64,000 bases of DNA, from the NCBI GenBank assembly GCA_913061275.1, contig CAJXSR010000003.1:62001-126000 (forward strand), given 5' to 3'. Source of the DNA: an uncultured Paracoccaceae bacterium. GTDB taxonomy: Bacteria; Pseudomonadota; Alphaproteobacteria; Rhodobacterales; Rhodobacteraceae. Below are positions 41,782 to 64,000 of this stretch, piece by piece (within the stretch, counting starts at the first letter, position 1; each line of letters starts with the position of its first letter). The position numbers were made by a program, and so were the translations under genes. The notes beneath the pieces were generated by a model. The model was not told the DNA's origin. It saw only the letters and a list, made by a program, of their open reading frames with translations, and did no database searches.

Positions 41782-42165
41782 ATGACTACCGTCATTACCG
41801 TTTGCGATACCTGCAAATCCGAAACCACACTTACACCCGACGCCCCTGAAAAGGATGGTGCAAAACTCGCAACCTTGATTGAGGCCGCTAATCAAGAAAA
41901 CTCTGATGTTGTAGTGCGCAGACATTCCTGCCTTATGGGATGTAGCCACGGTTGTAACATTGCAATACAGGCGCCTGATAAACTGACATATGTTTTAGGA
42001 CGGTTTGAACCGATTGAAGAGGCTGCAAAAGGTATCGTAGAATACGCAACCCTTCACAGCCAAAGCGCATTAGGGCAAGTCCCTTTCAAACAGTGGCCTC
42101 AAGCCATCAAAGGGCATTTTGTTTCACGCATCCCTACCTTAACCAAAGCAGCCGACCAAGAATAA
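41782..42165 (+). CDS. DUF1636 putative metal-binding protein
   Basis: 127 residues. The N-terminal TVCDTCKSE and the central SCLMGCSHGCNIAIQ carry five cysteines, resembling the thioredoxin-like ferredoxin fold. DUF1636 genes are often found with cobalamin genes, and here it is coupled to cobC by a one-base stop/start overlap (TAATG). AAGGAA precedes the start. Metal or Fe-S binding is inferred from the cysteines. Confidence 0.82.
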   Translation: MTTVITVCDTCKSETTLTPDAPEKDGAKLATLIEAANQENSDVVVRRHSCLMGCSHGCNIAIQAPDKLTYVLGRFEPIEEAAKGIVEYATLHSQSALGQVPFKQWPQAIKGHFVSRIPTLTKAADQE

Positions 42166-43121: not shown

Positions 43122-44038
43122 TGGGCCACTTGGAAATCCTGCTAATTGCAATCATTCTAGACGCTGTTTTTGGTGAACCCGATTGGATTTGGAAACGCAT
43201 CCCCCACCCGATTGAGGTTACGGGCAACTGTATCCGCTGGTTTGATGACACGTTAAACACAGGATCATTTCAGAAAATAAAAGGCTTTGTGGTAACTGGA
43301 ATTCTTGTTTTAGGGGCAGGGATTTTGGGATGGATTTTAACAAAACTACCCGATTTCGGTCTTATAGAAATCATAGTTGTTGCCGTTCTACTTGCACATA
43401 AAAGTCTGGTGCAACATGTCATGAATGTAGCCGTCGCATTGGCTCAAGACATTACCCTAGGGCGTTTAGAGGTCGCAAAAATTGTTGGGCGCACCACAGA
43501 TCAACTTCAACCAAGTGATGTCACACGCGCCGCAATAGAAAGTGCCGCTGAAAATTTTTCAGACGGAGTTATAGCACCTGCTCTTTGGTATCTGGTTTTT
43601 GGCCTGCCTGGTATATTGATTTACAAAGCCATCAATACCGCAGACTCGATGATAGGCTATAAAACTGAAAAGCATAGTGATTTTGGGTATCCCGCGGCCA
43701 AATTGGACGATATTTTAAACTGGGTGCCAGCACGGTTCACCAGCCTGATTATTTGCTTAACACATAAGCCGCGCGCAAGTTTTGACATTGTCCTTGATGA
43801 TGCAAGTTTACACCGATCCCCAAACGCAGGGTGGCCCGAAGCGGCAATGGCAGCGGTTCTGGGCATCGCTTTGGCAGGGCCGCGCAGTTACGATGGGCAA
43901 AAAGTAGATTATCCGTATGTGAATGCACAAGCGCGACACCAGCTTGACCCAGAGGATATTCGCCGATCCGTTTCAACACTGAATATCGTTTGGACAGGCT
44001 TTGCCCTAGTCCTATTCTTAGGTATTTTGGTTTTCTAA
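43121..44038 (+). CDS. cbiB: Adenosylcobinamide-phosphate synthase
   Basis: A 305-residue inner-membrane protein (also named CobD in aerobic nomenclature). DAVFGEPDWIWKRIPHP near the N-terminus, AAIESAAENFSDGVIAPALWY in the middle and WPEAAMAAVLGIALAGP near the end are the CbiB hallmarks. It attaches the aminopropanol phosphate made by the preceding enzyme to adenosylcobyric acid. Stop shared with the convergent rmlA gene. Confidence 0.93.
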   Translation: MGHLEILLIAIILDAVFGEPDWIWKRIPHPIEVTGNCIRWFDDTLNTGSFQKIKGFVVTGILVLGAGILGWILTKLPDFGLIEIIVVAVLLAHKSLVQHVMNVAVALAQDITLGRLEVAKIVGRTTDQLQPSDVTRAAIESAAENFSDGVIAPALWYLVFGLPGILIYKAINTADSMIGYKTEKHSDFGYPAAKLDDILNWVPARFTSLIICLTHKPRASFDIVLDDASLHRSPNAGWPEAAMAAVLGIALAGPRSYDGQKVDYPYVNAQARHQLDPEDIRRSVSTLNIVWTGFALVLFLGILVF

Positions 44039-44910
44039 GGCCATTCCAAGCTTTTCAAATACGCCCCATATTCATTTTTACCATATGTTTTGGCCATTTC
44101 TAAAACCTGTGTTTGGTCTATCCACCCATTTGCATAGGCAATCTCTTCCAAGCATCCTGTTTGCAATCCTTGCCGCGCTTGAAGTGTGCGCACAAAGTTC
44201 CCCGCATCCAACAAGCTTGCATGTGTGCCTGTATCCAGCCAGGCATAACCACGCCCCATCAATTTTACATCCAACAAGCCGTCTTCAAGATAGCTTTCTA
44301 AAACCGATGCAATTTCCACCTCGCCACGGGCAGAAGGTTTTACCAATCGCGCCCGTTCAGGTGCCGTTCCATCCAAAAAGTAAAGCCCTGTTACCGCATA
44401 ATTTGATGGGGGTATTTGGGGTTTTTCGATGATCTGTGTAACCTTGCCATCCGCACCCATTGCCAAAACACCATACCGTTCAGGGTCACTTACCCTATAG
44501 CCAAATACGGTGCCACCATCCTGTTTAGTATCCGCTTCAATTAGTGTTTTCGACAAATCATTGCCAAAGAAGATATTATCGCCCAGTACCATCGCAGAAG
44601 GTGCGCCATCCAAAAAATCTTCAGCTAACACATAAGCTTGCGCCAAGCCTTCAGGTTTAGGTTGCACAACATATGTAATCACAAGGCCCCATTGTGACCC
44701 ATCCCCAAGCACGCGAATGAACTGATCTTGGTCGTGGGGTGTGGTTATCACACAGATTTCCTGAATTCCCGTCAGCATCAATGCCGACAAAGGATAGTAT
44801 ATCATCGGCTTATCGTACACAGGCAGCAACTGCTTCGAGACCCCCAAAGTTACAGGATATAAACGTGTACCCGTTCCCCCTGCCAAAATAATCCCTTTAC
44901 GTTTTTTCAT
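44035..44910 (-). CDS. rmlA: Glucose-1-phosphate thymidylyltransferase
   Basis: 291 residues, with the signature GGTGTRLYPVTLGVSKQLLP and DKPMIYYPLSALM near the N-terminus. It makes dTDP-glucose, the first step to dTDP-L-rhamnose. Last gene of the rmlCBDA operon; it overlaps rmlD by 14 bases. Confidence 0.96.
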   Translation of the reverse strand: MKKRKGIILAGGTGTRLYPVTLGVSKQLLPVYDKPMIYYPLSALMLTGIQEICVITTPHDQDQFIRVLGDGSQWGLVITYVVQPKPEGLAQAYVLAEDFLDGAPSAMVLGDNIFFGNDLSKTLIEADTKQDGGTVFGYRVSDPERYGVLAMGADGKVTQIIEKPQIPPSNYAVTGLYFLDGTAPERARLVKPSARGEVEIASVLESYLEDGLLDVKLMGRGYAWLDTGTHASLLDAGNFVRTLQARQGLQTGCLEEIAYANGWIDQTQVLEMAKTYGKNEYGAYLKSLEWP

Positions 44911-45760
44911 TCTTAAGTGCCTCTAATTCTTGCAAAACAGATTTTAAACTTTCGCGCCAGTAGGGTTGTTCAATTCCAAATGATCGATGCAGCCCCCTAC
45001 AATCCAATGTCGAATTTAGGGGCCTTATAGCAGGTGTAGGATAAGATGTAGACGGTATCTTTGAAACCACCACATCCCGCCCCGCTTGCTTAAACACCTC
45101 TATTGCAAATTCTGCCCAACTTACATTCGGACAGCCCGCATAATGATACAGGCCTGAGCGATCGGGTGCAGTTACCAGTGATTGCGCCATTGTAATACAT
45201 GTATCCGCTATATCTTTTGCGCATGTTGGCCCCCCTATTTGATCGCCCACAATGTTTAGCTCTGTACGATCTTGTGAAAGGCGCAACATGCTTTTCACAA
45301 AGTTTGCGCCATGTGCTGAAAATACCCACGACGTGCGTAAAATTCCATATACCCCGCCTGCGTTTTGTATCCCCTGTTCACCGGCTAACTTCGTGCGGCC
45401 ATATGCATTCAAGGGGTTGGTTTCATCACTAGGCAACCATTCCCCCTCTTTACCCCCATCAAACACATAATCGGTTGAAATATGTACAAAGGGAATATTT
45501 CGTGCAGCCGCGGCTGTTGCCATTGCCGTTGGCGCGTCACCATTGATAGTTTGCGCAAGCGCTTCTTCTGCTTCGGCTTTATCAACCAAAGTGTAAGCAG
45601 CCGCGTTAATGATTGCATCCGCATCGGTTTTCGCAATAATTTCCGCACATTTTGCAGGATCAGTTAAATCTGCATCTTCGCGCCCCAGTGACACGGTGAA
45701 AGGATGTAAGGAAAGTTCACGCCCGACTTGCCCAGATTTACCAAAAACCAACAGCTTCAT
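44897..45760 (-). CDS. rmlD: dTDP-4-dehydrorhamnose reductase
   Basis: 287 residues of the extended SDR family. NAD(P) binding is in [13 protein letters not shown], and the family segment [14 protein letters not shown] with the YGRTKLAGE active-site Tyr/Lys is present. It reduces the 4-keto group to give dTDP-L-rhamnose. Confidence 0.95.
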
Positions 45761-46797
45761 GTTTTAACACCCAACCGAACCCCAACACCTTTGCGGCCCT
45801 GCAAAGCTTGCCACCAAGCCTCATTGTGTAAAAACCAACCAACAGTCTTTTCCAACCCTTGCTCTAACGTAACAGAAGGTTTCCAACCAAGGTCACTGCT
45901 TATTTTCGCTGCATCAATCGCATATCTCTGGTCATGCCCTGGCCTGTCATCCACAAATTTTATCTGTGTACTATAAGGCTTAGAACTAGGGCGTTTTCGG
46001 TCCAGTATTTCGCAAATTATTGTAACTAGACCAAGATTAGACATCTCATTATTTCCGCCGATATTATAGGTATTACCCAACGCACCCCTTGCAATCACCG
46101 TCAGTAACGCATCTGCGTGATCTTCAACATACAACCAGTCACGTATATTATCGCCCTTACCATATATAGGAATATCCTGACCGCTAAGTGCGTTTAAAAT
46201 CACAACAGGAATAAGCTTTTCAGGAAAATGGAACGGGCCATAGTTATTTGAACAATTACTAATCAAAACAGGCAAGCCATAGGTTTCGCCCCAGGCACGT
46301 ACCAAATGATCGCTTGCAGCTTTAGACGCCGAATAAGGCGAGTTAGGTGCATAAGCTGTGGTTTCCGTAAACAAGCCCGATGGGCCAAGTGAGCCAAAAA
46401 CTTCATCCGTTGATACATGTAAGAAGCGAAAGCTATCAAGCTTTCCCGTTTCAACCCAATAATTACGCGCCGCTTTCAACAATTTATACGTGCCCATAAT
46501 ATTGGTTTCCATGAACGCGTCTGGCCCATCAATAGATCTGTCCACATGACTTTCAGCCGCTAAATGCATCACTGCATCTGGGGAAAAATCCGCAAATGTA
46601 GATTGCAAAACCTGTTCATTACAAATGTCACCATGCACAAATCGGTAACGTGGGTTATCTTTAACACTGGCCACATTATCTAGACAGGCAGCATAGGTAA
46701 GCGCATCATAATTAAGCACACAATGCCCTTGTTCAATCGCGTTGCGCACCACGGCAGAGCCAATAAACCCAGCCCCCCCTGTTACAATAATTTTCAT
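45757..46797 (-). CDS. rmlB: dTDP-glucose 4,6-dehydratase
   Basis: 346 residues. [14 protein letters not shown] at the start, [15 protein letters not shown], and the active-site [14 protein letters not shown] are diagnostic of RmlB. It makes dTDP-4-keto-6-deoxyglucose. Four-base overlaps join it to rmlD and rmlC. Confidence 0.96.
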
Positions 46798-47360
46798 GCT
46801 GCACCTTCATAAATAAAAGGCGTTACAAATGTCGCAAAATCACCTGCACGCGCATCCTTTTCTGAAACCAATGCATCTGCCTTTAAACCCCACGCAATGT
46901 TCAGAACCGGATCGTCGTACTTAATTGAGCCCTCACATTCAGGCGCATAAACATCTGAACATTTATAAACAACCTCGGTATTTGGCGCACGCGTTACAAA
47001 CCCGTGCATAAACCCTTTTGGCACCAAAAGTTGTTTTCCGTTTTCGGCTGAAAGTTCCACACCCACCCAATGCCCATAGCTAGCAGAGTTTTTGCGAATA
47101 TCGACGGCTACATCCAATATCGCACCGTGCACCACACGAACCAGCTTATCTTGCGCGTGTGGCGGTGTTTGAAAATGCAAACCGCGCACCACCCCAACCT
47201 CAACACTTAATGAATGGTTGTCCTGTACAAAATCTATGTCAAACCCATTGGCCAGCATGCGGTTTTGGTTCCATGTTTCACTGAAAAAACCACGTTCATC
47301 CGTAAAGCGAGCAGGTGTAAGAACAACCACACCTTCTATTTTTGTTTGTTCAATATTCAT
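46794..47360 (-). CDS. rmlC: dTDP-4-dehydrorhamnose 3,5-epimerase
   Basis: 188 residues of the RmlC cupin. [22 protein letters not shown] and [12 protein letters not shown] are the family blocks. First gene of the rmlCBDA operon; divergent from the large exported protein gene, with the shared promoter region in 47361-47494. Confidence 0.95.
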
Positions 47361-50546: not shown

Positions 50547-51386
50547 ATGTTAAGTATCCTAATACCTGCAAATAATGAAGCAGCACGGATTGGCGAATGC
50601 TTAACGGCTGTTCTGGCTTCAAATCTGCCTGACACATTCTATAAGCCCCCCGAAATCATCGTAATCGCCAACGGCTGTCATGATGATACTGTTAAGCTTG
50701 CATCAAGTTATATAAAACAAGCAAAAGACAACGGCTGGCAATTAAAAGTCGTAAATTTAACTGTTGGAAATAAATTAACAGCCCTGAACACAGGCGATGC
50801 AAAGGCAGAGTTTGCCATGCGCATCTATCTGGATGCAGATGTTATTGTCAGTCGCGATCTTATAGGTGAACTGCACGCCGTATTGCACCATGACCATCCC
50901 GTTTATGCCAGTGGCACTGTTGTTATGCCCATACCCAAAACTTGGGTTAGTAAAGCATACAGGCGCATATATTCCCGTGTTCCATTCTTTACCCACGGTG
51001 TTCCGGGGTGTGGATTATTTGCCGTAAACCAACTTGGCCGTAAGCGTTGGGGCAAGTTTCCGGATATAATTTCAGACGACACATTTGTACGCCTGCAATT
51101 CAGCCCCAAAGAGCGCGTTAGCGTGTTATCAACTTACCAATGGCCGATTGTTGAAGGGTTTGCCAATTTGATAAAAGTACGCCGCAGGCAAAACATTGGC
51201 GTTGCCCAAATAGCGGCACAATACCCTGCATTGATGGAAAACGACGACAAAACACCTTTTAGCTTCATAAACATCTTAAAATTAATGTTAAGCGACCCTA
51301 TCGGTTTTTGTATTTATGCAACCGTTTCACTTGCAGTTCGCATTCGCGGAAACGCAAATACAGATAATTGGGAACGTGGGCGATGA
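50547..51386 (+). CDS. Family 2 glycosyltransferase
   Basis: 279 residues. The GT-A fold opens SILIPANNEAARIGECL, and the nucleotide-sugar DxD motif is in IYLDADVIV (about residue 92). The catalytic Asp/Glu region is SDDTFVRLQF. A C-terminal hydrophobic segment suggests membrane association. Donor and acceptor are unknown; it is coupled to the flippase gene by a four-base overlap (51383-51386). Confidence 0.85.
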   Translation: MLSILIPANNEAARIGECLTAVLASNLPDTFYKPPEIIVIANGCHDDTVKLASSYIKQAKDNGWQLKVVNLTVGNKLTALNTGDAKAEFAMRIYLDADVIVSRDLIGELHAVLHHDHPVYASGTVVMPIPKTWVSKAYRRIYSRVPFFTHGVPGCGLFAVNQLGRKRWGKFPDIISDDTFVRLQFSPKERVSVLSTYQWPIVEGFANLIKVRRRQNIGVAQIAAQYPALMENDDKTPFSFINILKLMLSDPIGFCIYATVSLAVRIRGNANTDNWERGR

Positions 51387-52747
51387 AAATCTTTACCAAA
51401 CATCTGCAAGGTGATGGTTTGCGCGCACGTGCTATGCGCGGTTCTGTCTGGACTATCGCGGGCTATGGTACATCACAAGCCTTAAGGCTGGCTGCAAACC
51501 TTATATTAACACGTCTGCTTTTCCCCGAAGCATTTGGGATGATGGCCCTTGTTACGGTTTTCATGCAAGGATTGATGATGTTTTCCGACATTGGTGTCGG
51601 CCCGTCGATTATGCAAAGCAAACGCGGCGACGATCCTGATTTTTTAAACACGGCTTGGACTATTCAGGTAATACGCGGATTTTGCTTATGGCTTGTCGCC
51701 TGTGCTATCGCAGCACCAGTCTCACGGTTTTATGGTGAGGCACAACTTGCCCAGCTTATACCCGCAGTGGGTTTTGGTTTGTTGGTAACTGGTTTTAATC
51801 CTACGCGGTTAGAAACTGGGCACCGCCATTTGCATTTAGGGCTCATCAGTTTCATTCAAATCATATCACAGACTATTGGCATTATAGCCGCTATATTTTT
51901 GGCATATATTACCGGCTCCGTTTGGGCCTTTGTTGTAAGTGGGCTTGTCAGCACAGTAAGCCACCTGATTTTACTGAATATGTATTTGCCGGGTGAGCGT
52001 AATCATTTTAGGTGGGAAAAGACCGCTGCAAAAGAATTAATTACCTATGGTAAGTGGATATTCTTAAGCACCGTCAGCGGATTTTTATTTATGCAAAGCG
52101 ACAAATTAATACTGGGTAAATTCCTGACAATCGAAGCGCTTGGCGTTTACAATATCGGGTACTTTTTAGCCAGCTTTCCCCTATTGGTCAGCTCTACAGT
52201 TATACATAAAATACTGATCCCGTTATACCGCGAAAGACCGCCCGCCGCATCAGCAGAAAACTATCAAAAGCTACGAAAAATGCGGTTCGCGGTCACAGCT
52301 TCTATTTTATCTTTGTTAATGATTTTCGCTTTCTTCGGGGCCAGTTTGGTAAGTATTTTATATGATTTACGTTACCAAAATGCAGGCGCCATAGTTGTTT
52401 TGACCGCCTGCATGCAAATCCCCTTAGTGATTATACTTACCTACGATCAGGCCGCGCTTGCCTCAGGCGACTCGCGCAGGTTTTTCATACTTGCAGCATC
52501 CAAAGCGGTCGTCATGGTGACGGTATTGCTAATTGGCATTAAAATGGCAGGTTTGTTTGGCGCATTACTTAGCCAAGGTATCGCAATTATCATTATATAC
52601 CCCGTTGCGGTTTGGCTGGCAAAAGAGCAAGGCGCGTGGGATCCAGAGCATGACATTATATTTTCCATCATCGGTTTGTTACTTGGTTCTGCCGCATTGT
52701 GGTATAATTTGGATGTAATACTGGCATTAAAAGCCCTACATATTTAA
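51383..52747 (+). CDS. Polysaccharide flippase (Wzx/MOP family)
   Basis: 454 residues from the preferred ATG, which overlaps the previous stop as ATGA; an in-frame TTG lies five codons earlier. About 12 hydrophobic helices and the family opening SVWTIAGYGTSQALRLAANLILTRLLFPEAFG, then MFSDIGVGPSIMQS, identify a lipid-linked oligosaccharide flippase. It likely moves a lipid-linked repeat unit across the inner membrane. No polymerase (Wzy) is visible in the window. Confidence 0.87.
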   Translation: MKIFTKHLQGDGLRARAMRGSVWTIAGYGTSQALRLAANLILTRLLFPEAFGMMALVTVFMQGLMMFSDIGVGPSIMQSKRGDDPDFLNTAWTIQVIRGFCLWLVACAIAAPVSRFYGEAQLAQLIPAVGFGLLVTGFNPTRLETGHRHLHLGLISFIQIISQTIGIIAAIFLAYITGSVWAFVVSGLVSTVSHLILLNMYLPGERNHFRWEKTAAKELITYGKWIFLSTVSGFLFMQSDKLILGKFLTIEALGVYNIGYFLASFPLLVSSTVIHKILIPLYRERPPAASAENYQKLRKMRFAVTASILSLLMIFAFFGASLVSILYDLRYQNAGAIVVLTACMQIPLVIILTYDQAALASGDSRRFFILAASKAVVMVTVLLIGIKMAGLFGALLSQGIAIIIIYPVAVWLAKEQGAWDPEHDIIFSIIGLLLGSAALWYNLDVILALKALHI

Positions 52748-52988: not shown

Positions 52989-55900
52989 ATGGTCGAACTA
53001 ACGCCACCAATCAGTGACAATGACATAGCCATCGTTGGTATGGCCGTGAACCTGCCAGGTGCCAGCAATTTATCACAATATTGGGAAAACCTACGCGACG
53101 GTGTCGAAACAATTAGCAAACTTAGCCAAACTGATCTGCAAGACGCAGGCGAAGAACTATCGCGTATCAATCATAAAAACTACGTTGCATCTGCAGCCAA
53201 ACTAGACGGCTACAAAATGTTTGACGCTGACTTCTTTGGCTTAAGCCCCAAAGAAGCGGCTATTATGGATCCTCAACACCGTAAGTTTTTAGAAACTTCA
53301 TGGGAAGCATTAGAAACCGCAGGCCATCCCCCTGAAACCTTTGGCGGCCGCATTGGTGTTTTTGCAGGCAGTGGGATGGGCAGTTATTTTTATTTCAATG
53401 TCTGTTCAAACCCTGACCTTGTAGACAACACAGGCATGTTCCTATTGCGCCATACAGGCAACGATAAAGATTTCATGGCCACAAGATTAAGCCACATACT
53501 GGATTTAAAAGGCCCTAGTATTAACCTGCAAACCGCGTGTTCCACATCACTTGTTGCCACTCATTACGCTTGTCAGTCATTGCTGAACGGCGAATGTGAT
53601 ATGGCACTGGCAGGCGGCTCAACCATCGAGCTGCCACATGGGCGTGGGTATATATACGAAGAGGGTGAAATACTATCGCCCGACGGGCATTGCCATGCAT
53701 TCGATCATCGCGCAAAAGGTACTGTTTTTGGCAGTGGCGCAGGTGTTGTTGTTTTGCGCAGATTGGCAGACGCCATTGCAGACGGCGATCACATTTGGGG
53801 TGTCATAAAAGGCTCGGCCGTAAACAATGATGGGTCAGCAAAAGCTGGGTATCTTGCACCCAGTGTTGACGGTCAGGCAACCGCCTTTTCAGAGGCACAA
53901 GCCGTTGCAAATACACCGGCTGGCACAATAGATTATGTAGAATGCCATGGAACGGGCACTTACCTAGGTGACCCGATTGAAGTCGCAGCACTGACAGAGG
54001 CGTTTCGCCATACCACAGATAAGACCGGTTATTGCCGCATTGGATCCGTTAAAACCAACATCGGTCATTTGGATACAGCTGCAGGCATTGCCAGCTTAGT
54101 GAAAACCGCGCTTTCTTTGCATAACCGTCAAATACCGCCAAGCTTAGGATATGAAAAACCAAACCCTGCAATAGATTTTGAAGCCAGCCCATTTAAAGTG
54201 AATGCAAAGTTGCAAAACTGGGTTTCCAACTCAAGCCCACGCCGGGCTGGGGTAAATTCTATGGGTGTTGGCGGTACCAATGCACATGTTATTGTTGAAG
54301 AAGCACCAAAACCTGCGCCTTATGAAGCATCAGACTGGCCATTTCATATCCTGACAGTTTCTGGGCGGTCAAAATCAGCGCTTACCGCAAACGCAAAAGC
54401 CTTAGCGGCACATCTTCGTGCCCACCCTGAACAGAAACTTGCAGACATTTCTTTCACGTTAAAGGAAGGGCGTCGTCATTTTGAACATCGACGCATTCTT
54501 GTGGCGAACTCCCATGAACAAGCGGCAGAGTTACTGGAAACAAACGATCCGCAACATGTATTCAATCACAAACCCATTGTAGGCAAAGCAGAGGTTACAT
54601 TCATGTTTCCCGGCGGTGGCGCACAATTTATTGGCATGGGGCAAGACCTGTATGAAACAGAGCCTGTTTTTCAAGAATGGGTTGATCGCGGCTTTGTTAT
54701 TTTACAACCCGAATTAGATTTTGACATTCGCGCATTATGGCTGCCAGAAAAAGATGCAGCACTTGATGCTGAAAAACGCTTAAAGCAACCCTCAGTTCAA
54801 CTGCCGCTTATCATGATAATCGAATACGCTTTAGCGAAACTTTGGATGTCTTGGGGTGTACGCCCAACGGCGCTGGTAGGCCATAGCATGGGCGAAAATA
54901 CTGCCGCATGTCTGGCAGGCGTCCTATCATTTGAGGCTTGCATTAAGCTGGTTCATCTACGCGGCCAACTGTTTGATACAGTGCCTGCGGGTGGGATGTT
55001 AAGTATCCCGCTTCCAGTGGCTGATGTTAGAGAAATACTGGGGGATGATCTGGATTTAGCCAGTGTAAATGCCCCAGAACTTTCCGTTGTTTCTGGGCCC
55101 ACTGCGGCCCTTACACGATTACAGAAGCAACTTTCTGAACGTTCAATAGACTCTAAGCGCATACCGATTGATATCGCGGCACATTCCCGAATGTTAGACC
55201 CAATTTTGGGAAAGTTCAGGGATTATTTGCGAACAATCACGCTTAACCCGCCCGAATTACCGATTGTGTCAAACAGCACCGGCACCTTCCTGACGGATGA
55301 TGAAGCGACAAATCCAGAGTACTGGGTTAATCATTTACGTGGCACAATCATATTTGCGGATTGCGTCACCACTTTAGCGACAAATCCAAACCGTATCTAT
55401 TTAGAAGTTGGCCCTGGCAAGGCACTAAGTTCTATGGCTGCGATGAACGATAAAGTTAACCGTCAACATACGTTCAGTACATTACGCCATCCTGACCAAG
55501 ACATTGCTGACGATGTTTATTTCGTCGGTGTTCTTGCGCGGCTTTGGGCAACAGGTGTGAACATCGATTGGGAACAAATTTGGGGCGACGCCCGACGCAA
55601 CCGCGTTGTGTTACCAACCTATGCGTTTCAACAAAGTGAATATTTCATAGAACGCCAAGAAGCTATCACACGGCCTGTATCAAATGATTTCCTTACCCGC
55701 ACTGAAGACATAGCTGACTGGGGATACCACCCTGTTTGGCATCCGCGACTGGCAGATTGTGTTTTTGATGTTGAGGCTGACCTTTCCCTAACAGATAAAC
55801 AAACTTGGTTATTTTTCAGCGATAAAGTTGGTGTTGGTTCTTGCATAGCAAAAAACCTGCGCATGGCTGGCCATAGTGTAATTGAAGTGCGCACAGGCGA

Positions 55901-58900
55901 TGATTTTATTCGGGAAAATGATAGCACATATTTGCTTGCACCAGAACGTGGGCGTGAAGGGTATGACGCATTAATTAAAGACTTGATTGCACGTGACATC
56001 ACCCCAAACCGCATCGTTAATTTTTGGTTGCTTACCCAAGATGAACAATCTCGCCCCGGCAGTAGTTTCTTTCATCAAAACCAAGAACAAGGATTCAATT
56101 CTTTGGTGTTTTTGGCACAAGCAATTTCTGACGAAAATTTAACTGCACCGGTGCATATTACGGCAATCACCTCTGATGCCGCCCAAGTAAAAGGCGAGCA
56201 ATTACCCTACCCCGAAAAGGCAACAATCCTTGGCCCTATTAAGGTTATTCCGCATGAATTTCCTAACATGACCTGTTCTGCGCTGGATATTGATATAAGC
56301 GCACGATTAAAACCTACATCCAAACACAGTTTATGGAAAAGGGGACAGGTTCAGAATAAAGCATCTGCTATTGATGGCCTTACAACACAAATATTAGAAG
56401 AATTGTTGGCGCCCACACAAAATACAATCGCAGCGTTACGGGGCGACAAACGGTTTGAACTTGGGTTTCACGCATTAAAACTGCCAGAACCACAAACCGA
56501 TAATGTTCCAATTTACCAACAAAATAATGCCTACCTTATTACAGGCGGTTTTGGTGGTATCGGGCTAACATTTGCAAAAGACATACTTGAACACCACGCA
56601 ACCGTCATTTTACTTACGCGCGCGGCCTTACCTGATCGTACAAATTGGAAGCAATACCTACGCTCACACAGCCCCAACGATAAAATTTCCAAACGTATTC
56701 TTGCAGTCCAAGAACTAGAAGCACTGGGCGGACAAGTTGAAATTGCTGTTGGTGATGTTTGTAATATAATTGAAATGTCAGCGATTATTGATGCCGCACA
56801 AACCAAGTACGGCCCTATAAAGGGTGTGATCCATGCCGCAGGTATTATCGATGACGGGCCATTATTGACAAAAAATATGGCCACAATGGATACAGTTTTA
56901 ACCCCAAAAACTCATGGTACACAAGTATTGCATAAATTGTTTCCTGATGGCGCATTAGATTGGTTAGTTTTATTTTCTTCCACCAGCACAGTGATCGCCG
57001 CTGCAGGGCAAGTGGATTATATGAGTGCGAATGAATACTTAAACGCTTATGCCAAAAGTCGCAAAACTGACCACACACGGGTAGTTTCTATTAATTGGGG
57101 GATTTGGAAAAACGTTGGCATGTCCGCTGATGCCATCTCAGAACGATTAGGGTCTTTTGATATACCCCCCGTAGAGCAAATCAAATCCCCGTTGTTGGAT
57201 ACGGCAACTTTTGATGTGAATGGCAACCGCGTATTCACCGCTGATTTTACAGTAAATGAACGATGGATATTAGATGAACATCGCACGGCATCGGGTAAGG
57301 CTGTTATGCCCGGTACTGGCTATATAGAACTAGCCATCGAAGCCTTACGGGCAAACTGCGAAGATGCCGCTTTTGAAATGCATGACTTGCTGTTTTTACG
57401 GCCCTTACAAATGGAAAATACTGAACGCCGTACCATTCAAGTAATCTTAACTAGAACAGCTACAGGATATAGTTTTGAAGCGCGAAGCGACTGCGTTCAT
57501 GATGGGCGCAAAGGGTTTCAGTTACATGCGCAGGCGAACTTAATTCTTACGGCTAATCCCAAACCTGCCGAATTGAATTTGAAAAATATATATGCGCGAT
57601 GTGATGAAAAACAACGGCCCAAACAAGGGACGCAAACTATCCGCGCAGCCCAAGAAGTTCATCTTGATTTCGGGCCACGATGGCGTGCTTTGCGCAATCT
57701 TGCCTATGGTGCAAATGAGGGCATTGCAGAACTGCGGCTGTCATTGCAAAGCCGCCAAGATATTAAACAAGGATATATGTTGCACCCTGCTTTGGTCGAT
57801 ATTGCAACAGGCTGGGCTATGAAGCTGATCGAGGGTTATCAGGCAGAACATTTATGGGTACCTGTTTCATACGATACCATACGCATTTATAAAGATTTGC
57901 CAGATCAAGTATTCAGCTGGGTACGTAACTCTGCGAATAATAATACCGACAATCAATTCGCTTCATTTGATGTGACCATTTGCGATGCAAAAGGCCATGT
58001 ATGTATTGAGATAAATGGGTTTACAATAAAACAACTTTCCGATGCTCAAGCGCTAACAAACACCCCTGCGTTATCAACCAGCGAAGTAGTTTTTGAGAAT
58101 GCGCAAAGTGAAATATCACATCCTTTATCTGCAGTCGAAGAACGTTTACATCATAACTTCACACAAGCGATTTCACCCGCAGAAGGTGTAGCCGCATTCC
58201 ACCGCGCTTTTCACACAAGTCAATCGCAGGTTTTTGTATCATCGCTTGATCTAAACGCTTTGGTTGCACAAGCCGATGTGCTATCTGTTCAGCACGAAAA
58301 TACAGAGCAAAAGTTTGCCAGACCTGATCTGGATACCGAATATGTAGCACCTTCTAACGACATAGAACGTACACTTGTCGGATTTTGGGAAAACTTACTA
58401 GGGGTGCAAAATGTAAGCGTCACCGATAATTTTTTCGATCTTGGCGGGCATTCATTGATTGCCGTGCGGTTATTTTCAATGGTGAAAAAAGCGTATCAAA
58501 TAGAATTTCCTCTTTCGATCTTGTTTGAAACCCCGACGATTGAAAAATACGCAGCATTAATTACGGATCAAACGGGAAGTCTGGAAATAGATCAAGATGC
58601 GACCGCGGCTTTAGAACCAGCTGAAGAGACCCAGCAGCATGCCCATTTAGTCGCCATGCACGATGGTAAAGTAGGGGATAAAGCACCGTTTTTCATTGTT
58701 GCGGGTATGTTCGGTAATGTCCTAAATTTACACCATTTAGCACATCTTCTAGGGCCTGAACGCCCGTTCTATGGGTTACAGGCACGGGGGCTTTTCGGGG
58801 GAAGCGAACCCCATAACTCACTTTATGATGCAGCGGCAGATTACATTGCCGAAATACGAGCAGTACAACCCCACGGTCCATATTTATTAGGTGGGTTTTC

Positions 58901-59516
58901 TGGTGGTGGTGTTACCGCATATGAAATAGCGCAACAACTTGAAGCGGCAGGGGATAAAGTTTCTTTGTTAGCTTTGCTGGATACACCTTTACCACAAAGA
59001 CGCCCATTATCAGGTACTGACCGAGCCATTATACAATGGAAAAGCTTAAAGGAAAAAGGCCTATTGCATGTGTTGCAGTGGCCAATCAACCGCGTGAAGT
59101 GGGAGCTTTCCAAACGTCGTCCGGTAATTGCTAATTCTGATAGTGATACGCAGCTTCAGTTTAACAACGCAGGTATTGAAACTGCATTTCTGCACGCTAT
59201 TAAAACCTACAAAATGAAACCATGGAGTGGGGCCGTTACCCTATTTCGTCCCCCCCTTATTGGAAAATGGCACGTATCAAATGGGCAATTAGTAAACAGC
59301 GAACGCGCTTATGTGTTGCACGATAATGATTGGGGGCAATGGGTGGATAAGATGACTGTGATAGAAATTCCAGGCAATCACGATTCTATTGTGCTTGAAC
59401 CAAATGTGCGTGTTTTAGCAACGCATTTAAAGACCTGCATTGATGCAGTTGAAGATACTTCAACCACAAATAATACCCTGCCTTATGACGGCATATATAT
59501 AGAAGCAGCGGAGTGA
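52989..59516 (+). CDS. Single-module type I polyketide synthase, KS-AT-KR-DH-ACP-TE
   Basis: 2175 residues. KS (12-437): Cys 184 in TACSTS, His 320 in ECHGTGT and His 360 in NIGH. AT (536-830): Ser 633 in GHSMGE; the specificity region at 731-735 reads AHSRM. KR: NADPH loop TGGFGGIG (1185-1192), Tyr 1344 and Asn 1348, with its structural half at about 905-1175. DH: His 1431 in DEHRTASGK and Asp 1604 in HPALVDI. ACP: Ser 1822 in LGGHSL. TE: Ser 1971 in GFSGG, Asp 1998 and His 2131. No ER. The order KR before DH is unusual. One polyketide extension, or iterative use, followed by TE release is likely. No good RBS is visible. Confidence 0.92.
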   Translation: MVELTPPISDNDIAIVGMAVNLPGASNLSQYWENLRDGVETISKLSQTDLQDAGEELSRINHKNYVASAAKLDGYKMFDADFFGLSPKEAAIMDPQHRKFLETSWEALETAGHPPETFGGRIGVFAGSGMGSYFYFNVCSNPDLVDNTGMFLLRHTGNDKDFMATRLSHILDLKGPSINLQTACSTSLVATHYACQSLLNGECDMALAGGSTIELPHGRGYIYEEGEILSPDGHCHAFDHRAKGTVFGSGAGVVVLRRLADAIADGDHIWGVIKGSAVNNDGSAKAGYLAPSVDGQATAFSEAQAVANTPAGTIDYVECHGTGTYLGDPIEVAALTEAFRHTTDKTGYCRIGSVKTNIGHLDTAAGIASLVKTALSLHNRQIPPSLGYEKPNPAIDFEASPFKVNAKLQNWVSNSSPRRAGVNSMGVGGTNAHVIVEEAPKPAPYEASDWPFHILTVSGRSKSALTANAKALAAHLRAHPEQKLADISFTLKEGRRHFEHRRILVANSHEQAAELLETNDPQHVFNHKPIVGKAEVTFMFPGGGAQFIGMGQDLYETEPVFQEWVDRGFVILQPELDFDIRALWLPEKDAALDAEKRLKQPSVQLPLIMIIEYALAKLWMSWGVRPTALVGHSMGENTAACLAGVLSFEACIKLVHLRGQLFDTVPAGGMLSIPLPVADVREILGDDLDLASVNAPELSVVSGPTAALTRLQKQLSERSIDSKRIPIDIAAHSRMLDPILGKFRDYLRTITLNPPELPIVSNSTGTFLTDDEATNPEYWVNHLRGTIIFADCVTTLATNPNRIYLEVGPGKALSSMAAMNDKVNRQHTFSTLRHPDQDIADDVYFVGVLARLWATGVNIDWEQIWGDARRNRVVLPTYAFQQSEYFIERQEAITRPVSNDFLTRTEDIADWGYHPVWHPRLADCVFDVEADLSLTDKQTWLFFSDKVGVGSCIAKNLRMAGHSVIEVRTGDDFIRENDSTYLLAPERGREGYDALIKDLIARDITPNRIVNFWLLTQDEQSRPGSSFFHQNQEQGFNSLVFLAQAISDENLTAPVHITAITSDAAQVKGEQLPYPEKATILGPIKVIPHEFPNMTCSALDIDISARLKPTSKHSLWKRGQVQNKASAIDGLTTQILEELLAPTQNTIAALRGDKRFELGFHALKLPEPQTDNVPIYQQNNAYLITGGFGGIGLTFAKDILEHHATVILLTRAALPDRTNWKQYLRSHSPNDKISKRILAVQELEALGGQVEIAVGDVCNIIEMSAIIDAAQTKYGPIKGVIHAAGIIDDGPLLTKNMATMDTVLTPKTHGTQVLHKLFPDGALDWLVLFSSTSTVIAAAGQVDYMSANEYLNAYAKSRKTDHTRVVSINWGIWKNVGMSADAISERLGSFDIPPVEQIKSPLLDTATFDVNGNRVFTADFTVNERWILDEHRTASGKAVMPGTGYIELAIEALRANCEDAAFEMHDLLFLRPLQMENTERRTIQVILTRTATGYSFEARSDCVHDGRKGFQLHAQANLILTANPKPAELNLKNIYARCDEKQRPKQGTQTIRAAQEVHLDFGPRWRALRNLAYGANEGIAELRLSLQSRQDIKQGYMLHPALVDIATGWAMKLIEGYQAEHLWVPVSYDTIRIYKDLPDQVFSWVRNSANNNTDNQFASFDVTICDAKGHVCIEINGFTIKQLSDAQALTNTPALSTSEVVFENAQSEISHPLSAVEERLHHNFTQAISPAEGVAAFHRAFHTSQSQVFVSSLDLNALVAQADVLSVQHENTEQKFARPDLDTEYVAPSNDIERTLVGFWENLLGVQNVSVTDNFFDLGGHSLIAVRLFSMVKKAYQIEFPLSILFETPTIEKYAALITDQTGSLEIDQDATAALEPAEETQQHAHLVAMHDGKVGDKAPFFIVAGMFGNVLNLHHLAHLLGPERPFYGLQARGLFGGSEPHNSLYDAAADYIAEIRAVQPHGPYLLGGFSGGGVTAYEIAQQLEAAGDKVSLLALLDTPLPQRRPLSGTDRAIIQWKSLKEKGLLHVLQWPINRVKWELSKRRPVIANSDSDTQLQFNNAGIETAFLHAIKTYKMKPWSGAVTLFRPPLIGKWHVSNGQLVNSERAYVLHDNDWGQWVDKMTVIEIPGNHDSIVLEPNVRVLATHLKTCIDAVEDTSTTNNTLPYDGIYIEAAE

Positions 59517-59521
59517 TCGAC

Positions 59522-60544
59522 ATGCGAGAACCAACCGTATTAACCATTATACTGAACTACAAAACACCCCAGATGACGGTGCGCTCATTAAAGGCAGCTT
59601 TACTTGCAATGAACGGCATCAAGGGCGCTATATCAGTTGTAGATAATGACAGCCAAGATGGATCATATGAAGAAATCAGTCAGGCTGTTCAGGCGTTTGA
59701 CGCGCCTGAAAAAAACCGCGTGCGTGTTATACAATCGGGCCATAATGGTGGCTTTGGTGCAGGAAATAATGTAGGTATTCGGGCGCGATTGCCAAATGGG
59801 GACGTGCCAGATTACATCTACATTTTAAACCCAGATGCCTTTCCTGAAAAAGACGCCATAAAACTGTTGCTTGCCTATTTGCAAGGTAATTCATCTGTTG
59901 GTTTTGCGGGCAGTCATACCCGCAGCCTAGACGGCACACCACATTACTCAGCATTTCGCTTTCCAACGATTCAAAGTGAATTTGAAGGGGCCGCACAATT
60001 TGGGCCAATTAGCCGCTTGTTAAAAAATTACACTGTACCGCTACCTATACCAGATCAAACTTGTAAGGTTGATTGGCTGGCAGGTGCTAGCATGATGATA
60101 CGTCATACTGTTATAGATGAAATTGGCCTTTTTGATGAGACCTTCTTTTTATACTTTGAAGAAACTGAACTTTGTCATCGCGCAAAACTTGCAGGATGGC
60201 CTACGGTTTACGTGTACGAAAGTGAAGTTGCCCATATCGGGTCAGGGTCTACTGGCCTAAAAACCTGCACACGAATACCAACATATTGGTTAAATTCACG
60301 CCTGTATTATTTTGTTAAAACGCACGGGCGCGCCTATGCGGCCATTGCAACATTAGCGCATCTTTCAGGTGGTGTAATTCGGCAAGTTCGCAACACTATT
60401 CAAATGAAACCTATTGCAGGCCCTTCATATTTCTTACGTGATTTAGCCATGCATTCTATGCGGGTCGTACTAAATGCTATGCGCATAAACCGCAGTAAAA
60501 CACTTACTGATACATCCCATCTTACACGTCAGGATACAAAGTGA
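59522..60544 (+). CDS. WbbL-like family 2 glycosyltransferase, probable rhamnosyltransferase
   Basis: 340 residues. The opening LTIILNYKTPQMTVRSL, then IYILNPDAF (DxD-like) and the block DWLAGASMMIRHTVIDEIGLFDE with FFLYFEETELCHRAK are those of rhamnosyltransferases such as WbbL. With rmlCBDA nearby, dTDP-L-rhamnose is the natural donor (inferred). ATG at 59522 is chosen: GGAG lies eight bases upstream. A GTG at 59513 overlapping the PKS stop (GTGA) is an alternative. The acceptor may be the PKS/NRPS product or a lipid carrier. Confidence 0.83.
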   Translation: MREPTVLTIILNYKTPQMTVRSLKAALLAMNGIKGAISVVDNDSQDGSYEEISQAVQAFDAPEKNRVRVIQSGHNGGFGAGNNVGIRARLPNGDVPDYIYILNPDAFPEKDAIKLLLAYLQGNSSVGFAGSHTRSLDGTPHYSAFRFPTIQSEFEGAAQFGPISRLLKNYTVPLPIPDQTCKVDWLAGASMMIRHTVIDEIGLFDETFFLYFEETELCHRAKLAGWPTVYVYESEVAHIGSGSTGLKTCTRIPTYWLNSRLYYFVKTHGRAYAAIATLAHLSGGVIRQVRNTIQMKPIAGPSYFLRDLAMHSMRVVLNAMRINRSKTLTDTSHLTRQDTK

Positions 60545-63500
60545 CCAATATCTGCAATAATCCTTTTTCATCCGTTGTTATCGGAAATGAATCACTGTTG
60601 ATCCAATGTTGTGAACTTCTATTACAACGTGGCCATAATATTCGCGCGGTGATCAGCGCAAAGGATGATATCGTAAAATGGGCGCACTCACAGAATTTAA
60701 CTGTCATAAATCCTGAAGAGAATATCGCGGTACAACTGCAAAACCATCCTTTCGATTGGCTGTTCAGCATTGCAAACCTATCTATCATTCCTGACGAGGT
60801 TTTGGCACAGGCTACTCTTGGCGCAATTAATTTTCATGACGGCCCTTTACCAGAATATGCTGGGCTAAACGCCCCAGTTTGGGCCTTGATTAATCAAGAA
60901 AAGAAGCACGGAATTTCATGGCACTTAATTGATAATGGTATTGATAAAGGCGATGTAATTGCGCGCCATATATTTGATATATCCAATAATGAAACAGCGC
61001 TTACGCTGAACGCAAAATGTTTTGAAACCGCCTTAAACAGCTTCCCAGATTTGCTTACAAAGATGGAAAATCAAGATTTACCTTGCATGCCGCAAGATTT
61101 AGAAAAACGTAACTATTATGGCCTTCATGATAGACCAGCCGCCGCTTCATTGCTTGATTTCACCCGCCCCGCGAATGAGGTGTTAGCGCTTGGGCGTGCA
61201 TTAGATCATGGGCCTTATCAAAACCCTGTATCTTGCCCGAAAATACTATTTCAAGGTCAGGCTTTCTTGATTGGGGAAATCACTGATGCCCTCACGAGCG
61301 TTCATACTAATGCTGTTGCCGGCACGCTATTATCAGTAACGGCAGATACCGTTATTGTCGCCACACAAACAACCCCAGTTCAGTTGCGCTATATAAGGGG
61401 CATTGACGGCAAGCCTGTCGCCATAAATGAAGTATTTAGCGAAACGAACGCCATAAAACCTATAGAGCCTCAGTTTGCAAACGACATTACCGAAATGATG
61501 CGCGCGCTTGTAAAAGCTGAACCTTTCTGGCGCGAGAAGCTAATTGATATCATCCCTGCTGAACTTCCTCACATGGGAAACCAACAAAATGATACAGGCT
61601 TTGCGCAACAGTCATTGAATTTACCTGCCTCATTAACAAATGATGAAATGCTGGCCATTGTTGCCGCTTGGGTTGCCCGCATATGTGATATATCTAGTTT
61701 TGATCTGGCATTTAGGGATGCAAATGCGCTTCAAGGCCTTAACCCTCAGTTCTGCACTGATTGGGTGCCTGTACGATTTGATGCAACAGATTGCCTATCA
61801 ATCCAAGAGGCTTCAACCCGCTTTGTTAATACGTTAAATACCGCGCGTATCCATCGCAGTTTTGCCCGTGATCTATGGTTACGCGACCCAAATATAAACC
61901 CAAGAATAACGCCTACTGTAGGCATCGTAATTGACAATGGGTTGCCGCCAATATTGGGCACATCACTGACCGTTGGAATTTCAACTGATGCTGCATATTT
62001 AAAATATGACACCAGTCAGTTTTCCAAAGAAACTATCGCCCGCTTTGCGACACAGATAGAACGTTTGTGCGAAAAGCAAACGGATGGTGACTTGAATGAC
62101 ATTTCGGTCAGCCATTTACCAATTCTGTCATCAGAAGAATATGATGAAGCGGTTTATCGCTGGAACGACACGCAAGAAGAATATGATCGGTCAATTTGTG
62201 TTCACCACATGTTTGAAGCGCAAGTTGCCCGTACTCCAAATGCACAAGCACTTGTTTTCGAAAATACGACTATGACCTATGCTGAGTTAAATGCCCAAGC
62301 TAATCGCGTGGCCAGTACTTTGCGCGACATGGGTGTTGGCCCTGATACTTTGGTAGGGTTATTTACACACCGGTCATTGGATTTAGTGATCGGCGCACTT
62401 GCAATACAAAAAGCAGGCGGGGCCTATGTGCCGCTAGACCCAACATACCCGCAAAACCGCCTCACACATTTTATAACGGACAGTGGCGCACCTGTTATCA
62501 TTACCCAATCTGATCTGGTGGATAAACTACCTGAATGCAGTGCGGATTTGCTTGTGCTTGATACTGATTTGCGGATTAAATCCGCGCCCGACGCCAACAT
62601 TGAATGCGATGTCACCTCTGAAAACCTTGCCTATATAATTTATACGTCAGGTTCTACAGGCGCGCCAAAAGGTGTGATGGTTCAGCACAACAACGTTGTC
62701 AACTTTTTCAAAGGTATGCACGAAACGGTCAATTCAGACCCGTCGGATGTTTGGCTTGCGGTGACAAGCCTGTCGTTTGATATTTCTGTGTTAGAGCTGT
62801 TTTACACACTTGCACGGGGATGTAAGGTTGTTGTCTATACCGAAAACAATCACATTATCCATCCGATTGAACATGTCACCATTGGTGCGCAAAAAATGGA
62901 TTTCAGCCTATTCAACTGGGGCAATGACGCGTTTGAGGGCGATAATAAATATGAACTATTACTTGAAGGCGCAAAATTTGCAGATATAAACGGTTTTTGT
63001 GCAGTTTGGACGCCCGAACGTCATTTTCACAGCTTTGGCGGGCTATACCCAAACCCATCTGTAACGGGTGCAGCAGTTGCCGCAGTCACCAAAAACATAT
63101 CTGTCAGGGCTGGCAGTATTGTAGCCCCTTTGCATCATCCAATCCGTATTGCCGAAGAATGGGCCGTTATCGACAATCTGACAAATGGCCGTGCTGGTAT
63201 GGCTATTGCATCGGGATGGCAACCTAACGATTTTGTACTACGCCCTGAAAATACGCCACCAAATAACAAACCCGCAATGTTTGATGCGATTGACACAATT
63301 CGTAAACTTTGGGCAGGGGAATCTGTACAGTTCCCAACCAAAGATGGTGCGCCTTTGGATGTTGTGACACACCCCCGTCCAATATCCACTGAATTACCAA
63401 TATGGGTAACAACCGCAGGAAACCCCCAAACTTGGGTCGAAGCGGGCAATGTTGGTGCAAATGTCTTAACCCATTTACTGGGGCAAACTGCCCAAGAAGT

Positions 63501-64000
63501 GAAAGAAAAAATAGCCCTTTATCATGATGCTTTACGCAGTACGGGCCATGACCCAAAAAACTTTACTGTAACGTTGATGTTGCACACGCTTGTCGGTTCT
63601 GATCGTCAGCAAGTGCGTGATATGGCCTGTGAACCGATGAAAGATTACCTGCGCAGTGCGGCTGGGCTAATTAAACAATATGCATGGGCTTTTCCCGCAT
63701 TCAAAAAACCCAAAGGTGTTGATAATGCTTTTGAACTTGATCTGGAAAGTGTCGATCCTGATGATATGGAAGCAATATTGGATTTTGCTTTTGAACGTTA
63801 CTTTGAAGAGGCGGGTCTGTTTGGCACGGTTGAAGAATGCCTAAATCGGGTAGAAGACCTTAAACAAATCGGGGTGGATGAAGTTGCCTGTCTTGTTGAT
63901 TACGGCCTGTCTGTTGATAAAGTTCTTGAAGGGTTAATACCGCTTGCAGAGGTCGTAAGGCGTGCCAACACTCCAACTGAAATCGCCGATACAGATTACT
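60541..64000 (+). CDS. Partial nonribosomal peptide synthetase: formyltransferase, half condensation, adenylation split by a luciferase-like monooxygenase
   Basis: No stop within the first 1153 codons, so it continues past the window. Starts at GTG overlapping the previous stop (GTGA). Residues 1 to about 300 are a formyltransferase: NFHDGPLPEYAG (97-108) and HLIDNGIDKGDVI (128-140). About 310-530 is a C-terminal condensation-like half with no HHxxxDG. Adenylation starts about 545; A3 is YTSGSTGAPKG (701-711) and A4 SFDISVLEL (745-753). A TIGR04020-type flavin monooxygenase follows at 786-1143 (MDFSLFNWGND; RAGSIVAPLHHPIRIAEEW). A5 to A10 and the carrier domain are not reached. Known relatives (Atu3671-like) make formylated, oxidised peptides. 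Confidence 0.88.
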   Translation, partial: MTNICNNPFSSVVIGNESLLIQCCELLLQRGHNIRAVISAKDDIVKWAHSQNLTVINPEENIAVQLQNHPFDWLFSIANLSIIPDEVLAQATLGAINFHDGPLPEYAGLNAPVWALINQEKKHGISWHLIDNGIDKGDVIARHIFDISNNETALTLNAKCFETALNSFPDLLTKMENQDLPCMPQDLEKRNYYGLHDRPAAASLLDFTRPANEVLALGRALDHGPYQNPVSCPKILFQGQAFLIGEITDALTSVHTNAVAGTLLSVTADTVIVATQTTPVQLRYIRGIDGKPVAINEVFSETNAIKPIEPQFANDITEMMRALVKAEPFWREKLIDIIPAELPHMGNQQNDTGFAQQSLNLPASLTNDEMLAIVAAWVARICDISSFDLAFRDANALQGLNPQFCTDWVPVRFDATDCLSIQEASTRFVNTLNTARIHRSFARDLWLRDPNINPRITPTVGIVIDNGLPPILGTSLTVGISTDAAYLKYDTSQFSKETIARFATQIERLCEKQTDGDLNDISVSHLPILSSEEYDEAVYRWNDTQEEYDRSICVHHMFEAQVARTPNAQALVFENTTMTYAELNAQANRVASTLRDMGVGPDTLVGLFTHRSLDLVIGALAIQKAGGAYVPLDPTYPQNRLTHFITDSGAPVIITQSDLVDKLPECSADLLVLDTDLRIKSAPDANIECDVTSENLAYIIYTSGSTGAPKGVMVQHNNVVNFFKGMHETVNSDPSDVWLAVTSLSFDISVLELFYTLARGCKVVVYTENNHIIHPIEHVTIGAQKMDFSLFNWGNDAFEGDNKYELLLEGAKFADINGFCAVWTPERHFHSFGGLYPNPSVTGAAVAAVTKNISVRAGSIVAPLHHPIRIAEEWAVIDNLTNGRAGMAIASGWQPNDFVLRPENTPPNNKPAMFDAIDTIRKLWAGESVQFPTKDGAPLDVVTHPRPISTELPIWVTTAGNPQTWVEAGNVGANVLTHLLGQTAQEVKEKIALYHDALRSTGHDPKNFTVTLMLHTLVGSDRQQVRDMACEPMKDYLRSAAGLIKQYAWAFPAFKKPKGVDNAFELDLESVDPDDMEAILDFAFERYFEEAGLFGTVEECLNRVEDLKQIGVDEVACLVDYGLSVDKVLEGLIPLAEVVRRANTPTEIADTDY

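Follow-up and report, generated by a model that had tools for sequence, protein, structure and literature searches.

Gene content and architecture of the module

We analysed 64,000 nucleotides of DNA from an uncultured Paracoccaceae bacterium (hereafter the window; window position + 62000 gives the position on host contig C3), which end inside a gene for a nonribosomal peptide synthetase (NRPS). The gene starts with a GTG codon at 60541 on the forward strand and stays open through the window end, with the first 1153 of its 1548 codons at 60541..64000; read in the host contig, it ends at C3:127187, i.e. 1187 bases beyond the window edge. The full product is a single open frame of 1548 amino acids (aa) without a frameshift. 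Its GTG and the stop codon of the upstream glycosyltransferase gene overlap by 4 bases, and the overlap is of exactly this length in 29 of the 68 relatives' loci when the longest open reading frame (ORF) start is taken.

Pfam and NCBIfam profiles give the domain order as a formyltransferase (FT), a stretch without a Pfam domain, the first part of an adenylation (A) domain, a monooxygenase, the second part of the A domain and a carrier. Within the window, on the forward strand, these are the FT domain (residues 1–295, 60541..61425), a condensation-domain remnant lobe without an HHxxxDG motif (residues 297–548, 61429..62184), the A domain up to motif A4 (residues 556–770, 62206..62850; PF00501 and TIGR01733), a flavin mononucleotide (FMN)-dependent luciferase-like monooxygenase that interrupts the A domain (residues 788–1138, 62902..63954) and the start of the second A part (63973..64000; Pfam and TIGR01733), which continues to residue ∼1415 outside the window (L003). 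The carrier domain (PF00550, residues 1441–1504, serine 1467) also lies outside the window; its serine is present in 80 of 87 aligned proteins, and the other seven have gaps there. This alignment consists of the window gene and its counterparts at 86 loci (L029–L114).

The same protein occurs along its whole length in congeners and one other genus (53–62% identity), and 17 plasmid records cover at least 80% of it (41–55% identity). Because full-length homologues recur in these settings, the architecture is not a product of chance, and the module with its formyltransferase, half condensation domain and monooxygenase is confirmed as real. Median identities over 77 homologues are 72% for the monooxygenase, 60 and 57% for the two A parts, 47% for the FT and 27% for the lobe.

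An intact formyltransferase beside a retained condensation lobe

PF00551 matches the FT at residues 59–169 (E 6.3e-15). Asn97 (codon 60829), His99 (codon 60835) and Asp135 (codon 60943), which we take to be the catalytic residues of the family, are present and kept in 85 of the 87 aligned homologues; of the two remaining cases, L034 encodes the FT in a gene of its own, and in L114 it lies on another ORF piece in a split frame. The AlphaFold model of the domain has a predicted local distance difference test (pLDDT) score of 91.5, with FMT/ArnA as its top Foldseek matches, and the solved structures nearest to it by sequence and fold are ArnA, WbkC, QdtF and methionyl-tRNA formyltransferases.

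The following lobe (residues ∼297–548) has no match to PF00668 at E 0.001, only a fragment at E 0.2, and HHxxxD occurs in this stretch in none of 78 full-length homologues. The lobe thus lacks both the gathering score and the HHxxxDG motif of a PF00668 condensation domain, while the fold is kept: its model, built with 31 sequences, has a mean pLDDT of 91.6, and Foldseek retrieves NRPS condensation-type chains with TM-scores by query length of 0.50–0.69, judged by the titles of the 50 matches listed. Its final 60 residues, at the junction with the A domain, resemble NRPS chains such as McyB (E 1.6e-11). Right after the FT in a distant alphaproteobacterial genome (G692), Pfam Condensation profiles match at positions 191–455 and 195–455 of 456 (E 1.4e-4 and 1.9e-5, both below the gathering score). 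Together, the fold and the matches in this genome suggest that the FT occupies the position of the former N-terminal lobe, which carries the catalytic motif, and that the C-terminal lobe was retained. In known modules, N-acylated glycine is what the monooxygenase acts on, and for this reason the FT may be regarded as supplying one carbon in place of the condensation donor lobe. The protein has the architecture of a formylating initiation module of the LgrA/CongA type, i.e. an FT with its triad fused before an A domain and a peptidyl carrier protein (PCP), without HHxxxDG.

A glycine-type adenylation domain split by a monooxygenase

TIGR01733 positions 1–197 precede the insertion and positions 193–409 follow it, so that the A profile is complete around the monooxygenase, as in modules of the MtaG/SolF type. 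Those modules have a working condensation domain through which an upstream chain is delivered; it is absent here, and an FT stands in its place. The Asp235-type residue is Asp747, and the ten code positions, located by A-domain motifs and given in GrsA numbering, read DILQMGMIWK. Complete codes were obtained for 81 of the 87 aligned proteins, all of the form DILQxGM(I/V)WK: 47 DILQMGMIWK, 18 DILQLGMIWK, 14 DILQFGMIWK, one DILQAGMIWK and one DILQLGMVWK; the other six are lost to contig ends or split ORFs. Four glycine A domains with an embedded monooxygenase have the code DILQLGMIWK, as given in section 10 of one account (PMC12283262). The window code is identical to it at nine of ten positions (Met for Leu at 299), and we counted it as a glycine code; the A domain thus appears to select glycine.

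The monooxygenase belongs to the MupA/Atu3671 family TIGR04020 (479.2 bits against a curated cut-off of 244.45). Its nearest solved structure is PuwE (6ket; E 1.3e-104). It is present in all 78 full-length proteins and is the most conserved domain.

These results bear out the original prediction, which was made from the window's letters alone, on several points: an initiation module headed by an FT, which we now place in the donor-lobe position; a condensation part without HHxxxDG; a monooxygenase inside the A domain; and the beginning of a glycine-type code, now extended to a full predicted pocket one residue away from a known one. The A5–A10 motifs and the carrier domain that it expected beyond the window edge are found in the host contig, in frame.

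A conserved cassette in a predicted exopolysaccharide locus

Upstream of the NRPS gene lie a one-module type I polyketide synthase (PKS; 52989..59516, +, 2175 aa) and, between the two, a gene for a family 2 glycosyltransferase (GT2; 59513..60544, +; Pfam). From Pfam matches and active-site motifs, the PKS reads ketosynthase (KS), acyltransferase (AT), ketoreductase (KR), dehydratase (DH), acyl carrier protein (ACP) and thioesterase (TE). A comparison of 75 PKSs of at least 1900 aa shows the KS cysteine and both histidines in 75/75, the ACP serine in 75/75 and the TE motif GxSGGG in 74/75, the exception being Deinococcus, where the PKS terminates in a condensation domain. Among the commonest patterns of the KR, the DH and the TE histidine, catalytic letters are kept save in one TE-histidine row. 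For the KS–AT part, the closest matches (710 bits) are chains in the entries 8xjy, 8xjz and 8xju; 8xjz also has a peptide synthetase chain, which would suit a KS fed by an NRPS.

The gene right after the NRPS encodes a phosphopantetheinyl transferase (PPTase) of 242 aa (L003:5185-5913). PF01648 matches in the host genome comprise this protein and one in a 153-aa frame, and only the former is of Sfp-type length. As the genome has further NRPS-type A domains (contigs C53 and C12), the PPTase of the sugar locus probably serves those NRPSs too.

Scanning named genomes with the FT-lobe alignment gave at least 597 stretches, of which 554 were confirmed and the best 80 kept, a choice that favours near relatives. 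These 80 loci are mostly from Rhodobacterales, but also from Hydrogenophaga and other Burkholderiales, with single bins labelled Verrucomicrobiales and Hyphomicrobiales and one contig labelled Nocardioides. Context was counted in the 68 loci with at least 19 kb of DNA. PKS and GT2 genes are present in 68/68 and a PPTase gene in 67; PKS, GT2 and NRPS follow each other in this order on one strand in 68/68, and the PPTase comes directly after in 67/67 where found. Pairwise distances of NRPS, PKS and GT2 are correlated over 65 loci (r 0.92, 0.82 and 0.88; the Mantel r of 0.92 is NRPS against PKS; 0 of 999 permutations as high), as expected of a cassette that travels as a unit.

We then inspected the surroundings of the cassette. 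A flippase gene of the Wzx type (51368..52747, +; PF13440) and a further family 2 glycosyltransferase gene (50547..51386, +; Pfam) precede the PKS, and four sugar nucleotide genes of the deoxythymidine diphosphate (dTDP)-rhamnose type (nucleotidyl transferase, RmlD-, dehydratase- and RmlC-like) lie at 44035..47360 on the reverse strand. Downstream of the window are proteins resembling GumC, Wzc, TagA, a ligase and sugar transferases, identified by eye and through matches to annotated genes. By gene content, the locus qualifies as a predicted exopolysaccharide locus. The in-between GT2 weakly resembles rhamnosyltransferases (TIGR01556, 41 bits, below the cut-off of 200). In Ruegeria conchae (L029), rfbCBDA also lie just upstream of the cassette, and rhamnose genes near the cassette in both places would suit a role as a rhamnosyltransferase.

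Six polysaccharide families (flippase, GumC, Wzc, phosphoglycosyl transferase, TagA and ligase) were searched by blastp to the window locus at E 1e-6. At least one is found in 61 of the 68 loci, and 67 have polysaccharide or other sugar genes when the latter are counted. The figure of 61/68 is not a count of independent events, as the search used proteins of the window locus itself and near relatives dominate. None of the six families occurs in 20 control stretches of 20 kb at positions chosen in four module-bearing genomes of the family, nor in two 20-kb pieces of window 1–40000. A more independent sample consists of the surroundings of nine of the 17 plasmid records and Deinococcus. In this sample, a similar PKS adjoins or lies near the NRPS in 10/10 (in two frames in L190), and polysaccharide genes are found by annotation or blastp in 8/10; in Methylobacterium (L033) they are recognized by eye only, with glycosyltransferases found by blastp, and Aliiroseovarius (L192) has none. 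The polysaccharide context thus recurs, with varying gene arrangement, in Roseobacter relatives, Shinella, Aminobacter, Paracoccus, a Rhizobium and Deinococcus.

Proposed function and alternative explanations

On balance, we favour the view that the gene encodes the intact starter module of a two-protein NRPS–PKS line that is part of an exopolysaccharide locus, and that formyl-glycine is oxidized, extended and released by this line. The complete gene, its domain order and intact motifs, the conserved cassette and the locus context are the observations from which we infer the following reactions and a polysaccharide acceptor: (i) the A domain would activate glycine, as its code suggests, and load it onto the carrier; (ii) the FT would formylate the glycyl amine from formyl-tetrahydrofolate and so replace the role of the lost donor half, as the intact triad, the LgrA precedent and the fused lobe suggest; (iii) the embedded FMN monooxygenase would hydroxylate the alpha carbon of the N-formylated glycine, following the myxothiazol and solanimycin precedent; (iv) the neighbouring KS would accept the group from the carrier and add a C2 unit, KR and DH would reduce and dehydrate, and the TE would release the product; and (v) the product would be placed on an exopolysaccharide sugar, or be glycosylated by the in-between GT2, as the gene context suggests. 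Step (iv) relies on the adjacency of NRPS and PKS and on relatives in Methylobacterium, Deinococcus and Aliiroseovarius, where the NRPS lies upstream of the PKS, which supports the order NRPS then PKS; no fused NRPS–PKS, which would have settled this order, turned up among the loci examined. The original suggestion of an unusual starter, such as an N-formyl or oxygenated amino acid, thus finds support: the FT, the code and the monooxygenase make an N-formyl and oxygenated starter likely. Its overall interpretation stands as far as the initiation module, code and embedded monooxygenase are concerned; each of these elements has a precedent, and the cassette and exopolysaccharide context lay outside it.

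Several observations weigh against this interpretation. Sequence places the FT closer to sugar formyltransferases than to LgrA (ArnA 64 bits, LgrA 34 bits). No flavin reductase is found among the immediate neighbours, whereas a Streptomyces homologue has one. In the PKS, the extender unit cannot be read from the AT signature IAAHS, and the textbook DH motif is one residue shorter than the motif found here. As for context, keeping the best 80 of 554 loci favours near relatives; seven of the 68 lack all six polysaccharide families, of which L062 has no extra sugar gene either; and the Aliiroseovarius cassette (L192) adjoins denitrification genes without polysaccharide genes.

The line could instead make a free secreted small molecule (e.g. 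a signal, antibiotic or metallophore) that is merely co-located with polysaccharide genes, for instance through joint regulation, which we consider plausible at somewhat under even chances. A TE ends the PKS in 74/75, the line of Aliiroseovarius is longer and has no polysaccharide gene within 15 kb, and the monooxygenase's relatives in Agrobacterium sit in another NRPS–PKS locus, all of which would suit a free product; the recurrence of the polysaccharide context in varied arrangements across distinct genera, and a glycosyltransferase between PKS and NRPS in every one of the 68 loci, argue for a link with the sugar genes. The form of the starter could also differ. In a glyoxylyl version, which is possible but doubtful, the N-formyl-alpha-hydroxyglycyl thioester would collapse, formamide would leave and the PKS would extend glyoxylyl, a two-carbon oxo-aldehyde, so that formyl would be merely the smallest N-acyl group that makes glycine a monooxygenase substrate. 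According to two accounts (PMC11342130, PMC10204066), a like module in myxothiazol and melithiazol splits the N–C bond and leaves carrier-bound glyoxylate, while solanimycin B, as described, keeps hydroxyglycine; sequence does not distinguish a stable from a collapsing hydroxyglycine.

The resemblance of the FT to ArnA, WbkC, QdtF and methionyl-tRNA formyltransferases, in a polysaccharide context, would also be expected if an amino sugar of the polysaccharide were the substrate of the FT and co-expression the reason for its fusion to the NRPS. We regard this as improbable: the FT–lobe–A order heads ordinary multi-module NRPSs without the monooxygenase (L165 and L189), and the LgrA FT, itself formyltransferase-like, is described as acting on a carrier-bound amino acid (PMC4504003). 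A decayed or unused module, to which the poorly conserved lobe (median 27%) and the division of the PKS among several ORFs at a few related loci (L046, L054, L097, L114 and L190) might point, is highly improbable and was rejected, given that the active-site motifs of the window copy are all intact and conserved. Such divisions, which in L114 also affect the NRPS, reflect mutation or sequencing error.

Returning to the favoured starter module, its product may tentatively be seen as an exopolysaccharide decoration, in which formyl would be the smallest acyl donor and a short C4-type acyl group, derived from formyl-hydroxyglycyl or glyoxylyl, would be put on a surface sugar. If so, this would be a widespread surface modification, present in about one-third of the genera sampled from the host family as well as in Hydrogenophaga, Hyphomicrobiales and Deinococcus, which polysaccharide chemists have yet to link to NRPS–PKS, and such lines would equip surface polysaccharide besides making released metabolites. 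Surface polysaccharide shapes the attachment and biofilms of marine Rhodobacterales. The FT-plus-lobe arrangement is also a natural experiment in swapping a condensation donor lobe, which is useful for assembly-line engineering.

Comparison with known systems

Formyl-glycine loading modules are known from conglobatin and phthoxazolin. CongA (conglobatin), PtxE (phthoxazolin) and OzmO (oxazolomycin) load formyl-glycine through an FT, a glycine A domain and a PCP and feed it to a PKS; published descriptions give them as F-A-PCP, to which the window module adds a lobe between F and A and a monooxygenase in A. Their oxazole-forming partner (CongE, OzmP, PtxD) was not seen among the neighbours of the NRPS, although no search by name was made. 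MtaG/MelG (myxothiazol, melithiazol) and SolF (solanimycin) share the monooxygenase inside a glycine A domain and have a near-identical code, but are described as chain-extending modules with a working condensation domain, whereas the window module starts a chain and carries an FT. The LgrA initiation module (linear gramicidin) is a valine module and also has an N-terminal FT ahead of A and PCP. It has no monooxygenase, and its matching points of FT and A (132 to 207) are 75 residues apart, which leaves no room for a lobe; the corresponding distance in the window protein (157 to 554) is 397. PuwE (puwainaphycin, 6ket) shares the monooxygenase domain, and is described as lying between an aminotransferase-bearing PKS module and an NRPS module, with a proposed alpha-hydroxylation of a beta-amino acyl chain. 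On Agrobacterium pAt15955, the monooxygenase (41.7% identical to the window domain) is a separate gene between PKS and NRPS, so that the arrangement in this one record differs from that of the window module.

A fabrubactin-type siderophore was not assigned, since the Agrobacterium monooxygenase stands alone without an FT and FbnE has been proposed to make alpha-hydroxycarboxylates (PMC12971057). A role in defence was also set aside, as PADLOC gave 0 families for the NRPS, PPTase and glycosyltransferase.

Modules that load formyl-glycine and modules that oxidize glycine are thus each known. What is new is that one starter module combines the two and keeps a condensation lobe and, most of all, that it has a conserved position within polysaccharide loci. 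No description of an exopolysaccharide-linked NRPS–PKS of this kind was found in the titles and abstract starts of open-licence literature.

Distribution and variant relatives

In a sample of 295 host-family genomes, 106 match the FT-lobe model at E 1e-40 (106/294 genera); across the phylum, 19 of 398 genomes match it at E 1e-30, four of them in part of the FT only (∼1e-31). Within the genus, the module or a piece of it is present in 8 of 33 genomes, including that of the window. TIGR04020 scores above its cut-off in 3 of 190 genomes of the class; the 31/190 matches at E 1e-30 were rejected as a measure of prevalence, being mostly other luciferase-like proteins.

The Aliiroseovarius PKS line reads KS-AT-KR-DH-ACP-C-A-PCP-TE. 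In Deinococcus (L034:14992-26977), the separate FT gene is accompanied by an NRPS followed directly by a PKS that ends in its condensation domain, with no TE. FT-lobe modules without the monooxygenase head ordinary NRPSs in other alphaproteobacteria (L165, L166 and L189), and many further FT matches adjoin NRPS genes on rhizobial plasmids. Three Hydrogenophaga loci (L043:16595-21597, L040:15992-21595 and L064:18531-21596) have a second, downstream line of AMP ligase, carrier, condensation and adenylation domains, with an additional TE in L040; such sugar loci may therefore be served by more than a single assembly line. An A-PCP-TE protein lies upstream in Paracoccus (L032).

Other features of the locus are a 969-aa protein (47495-50404) between the sugar nucleotide genes and the flippase, with weak matches to RTX calcium-binding repeats near its C terminus, and a 702-aa protein (L003:8124-10232), which by eye resembles a fusion of a Gfo/Idh/MocA dehydrogenase with an NAD-dependent epimerase and is found in 20 of the 68 loci. 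Genes for cobalamin biosynthesis (CbiG, tetrapyrrole methylases, CbiX, CobD and an aminotransferase; 34347-39805 and 42093-44038) border the sugar locus. A promoter and terminator scan gave 11 promoter-like sites against 16.1 expected and 14 terminator-like sites against 9.4, and was not used; one short tandem array (38752-38792) is irrelevant to the module.

One study lists the Phaeobacter PKS and NRPS genes Inhi_1972 and Inhi_1974 without a product (PMC4062626). Two other Phaeobacter genomes carry the cassette (L079 and L082), and Inhi_1972/Inhi_1974 may well be the same cassette, which would give a handle on such productless genes of Roseobacter relatives.

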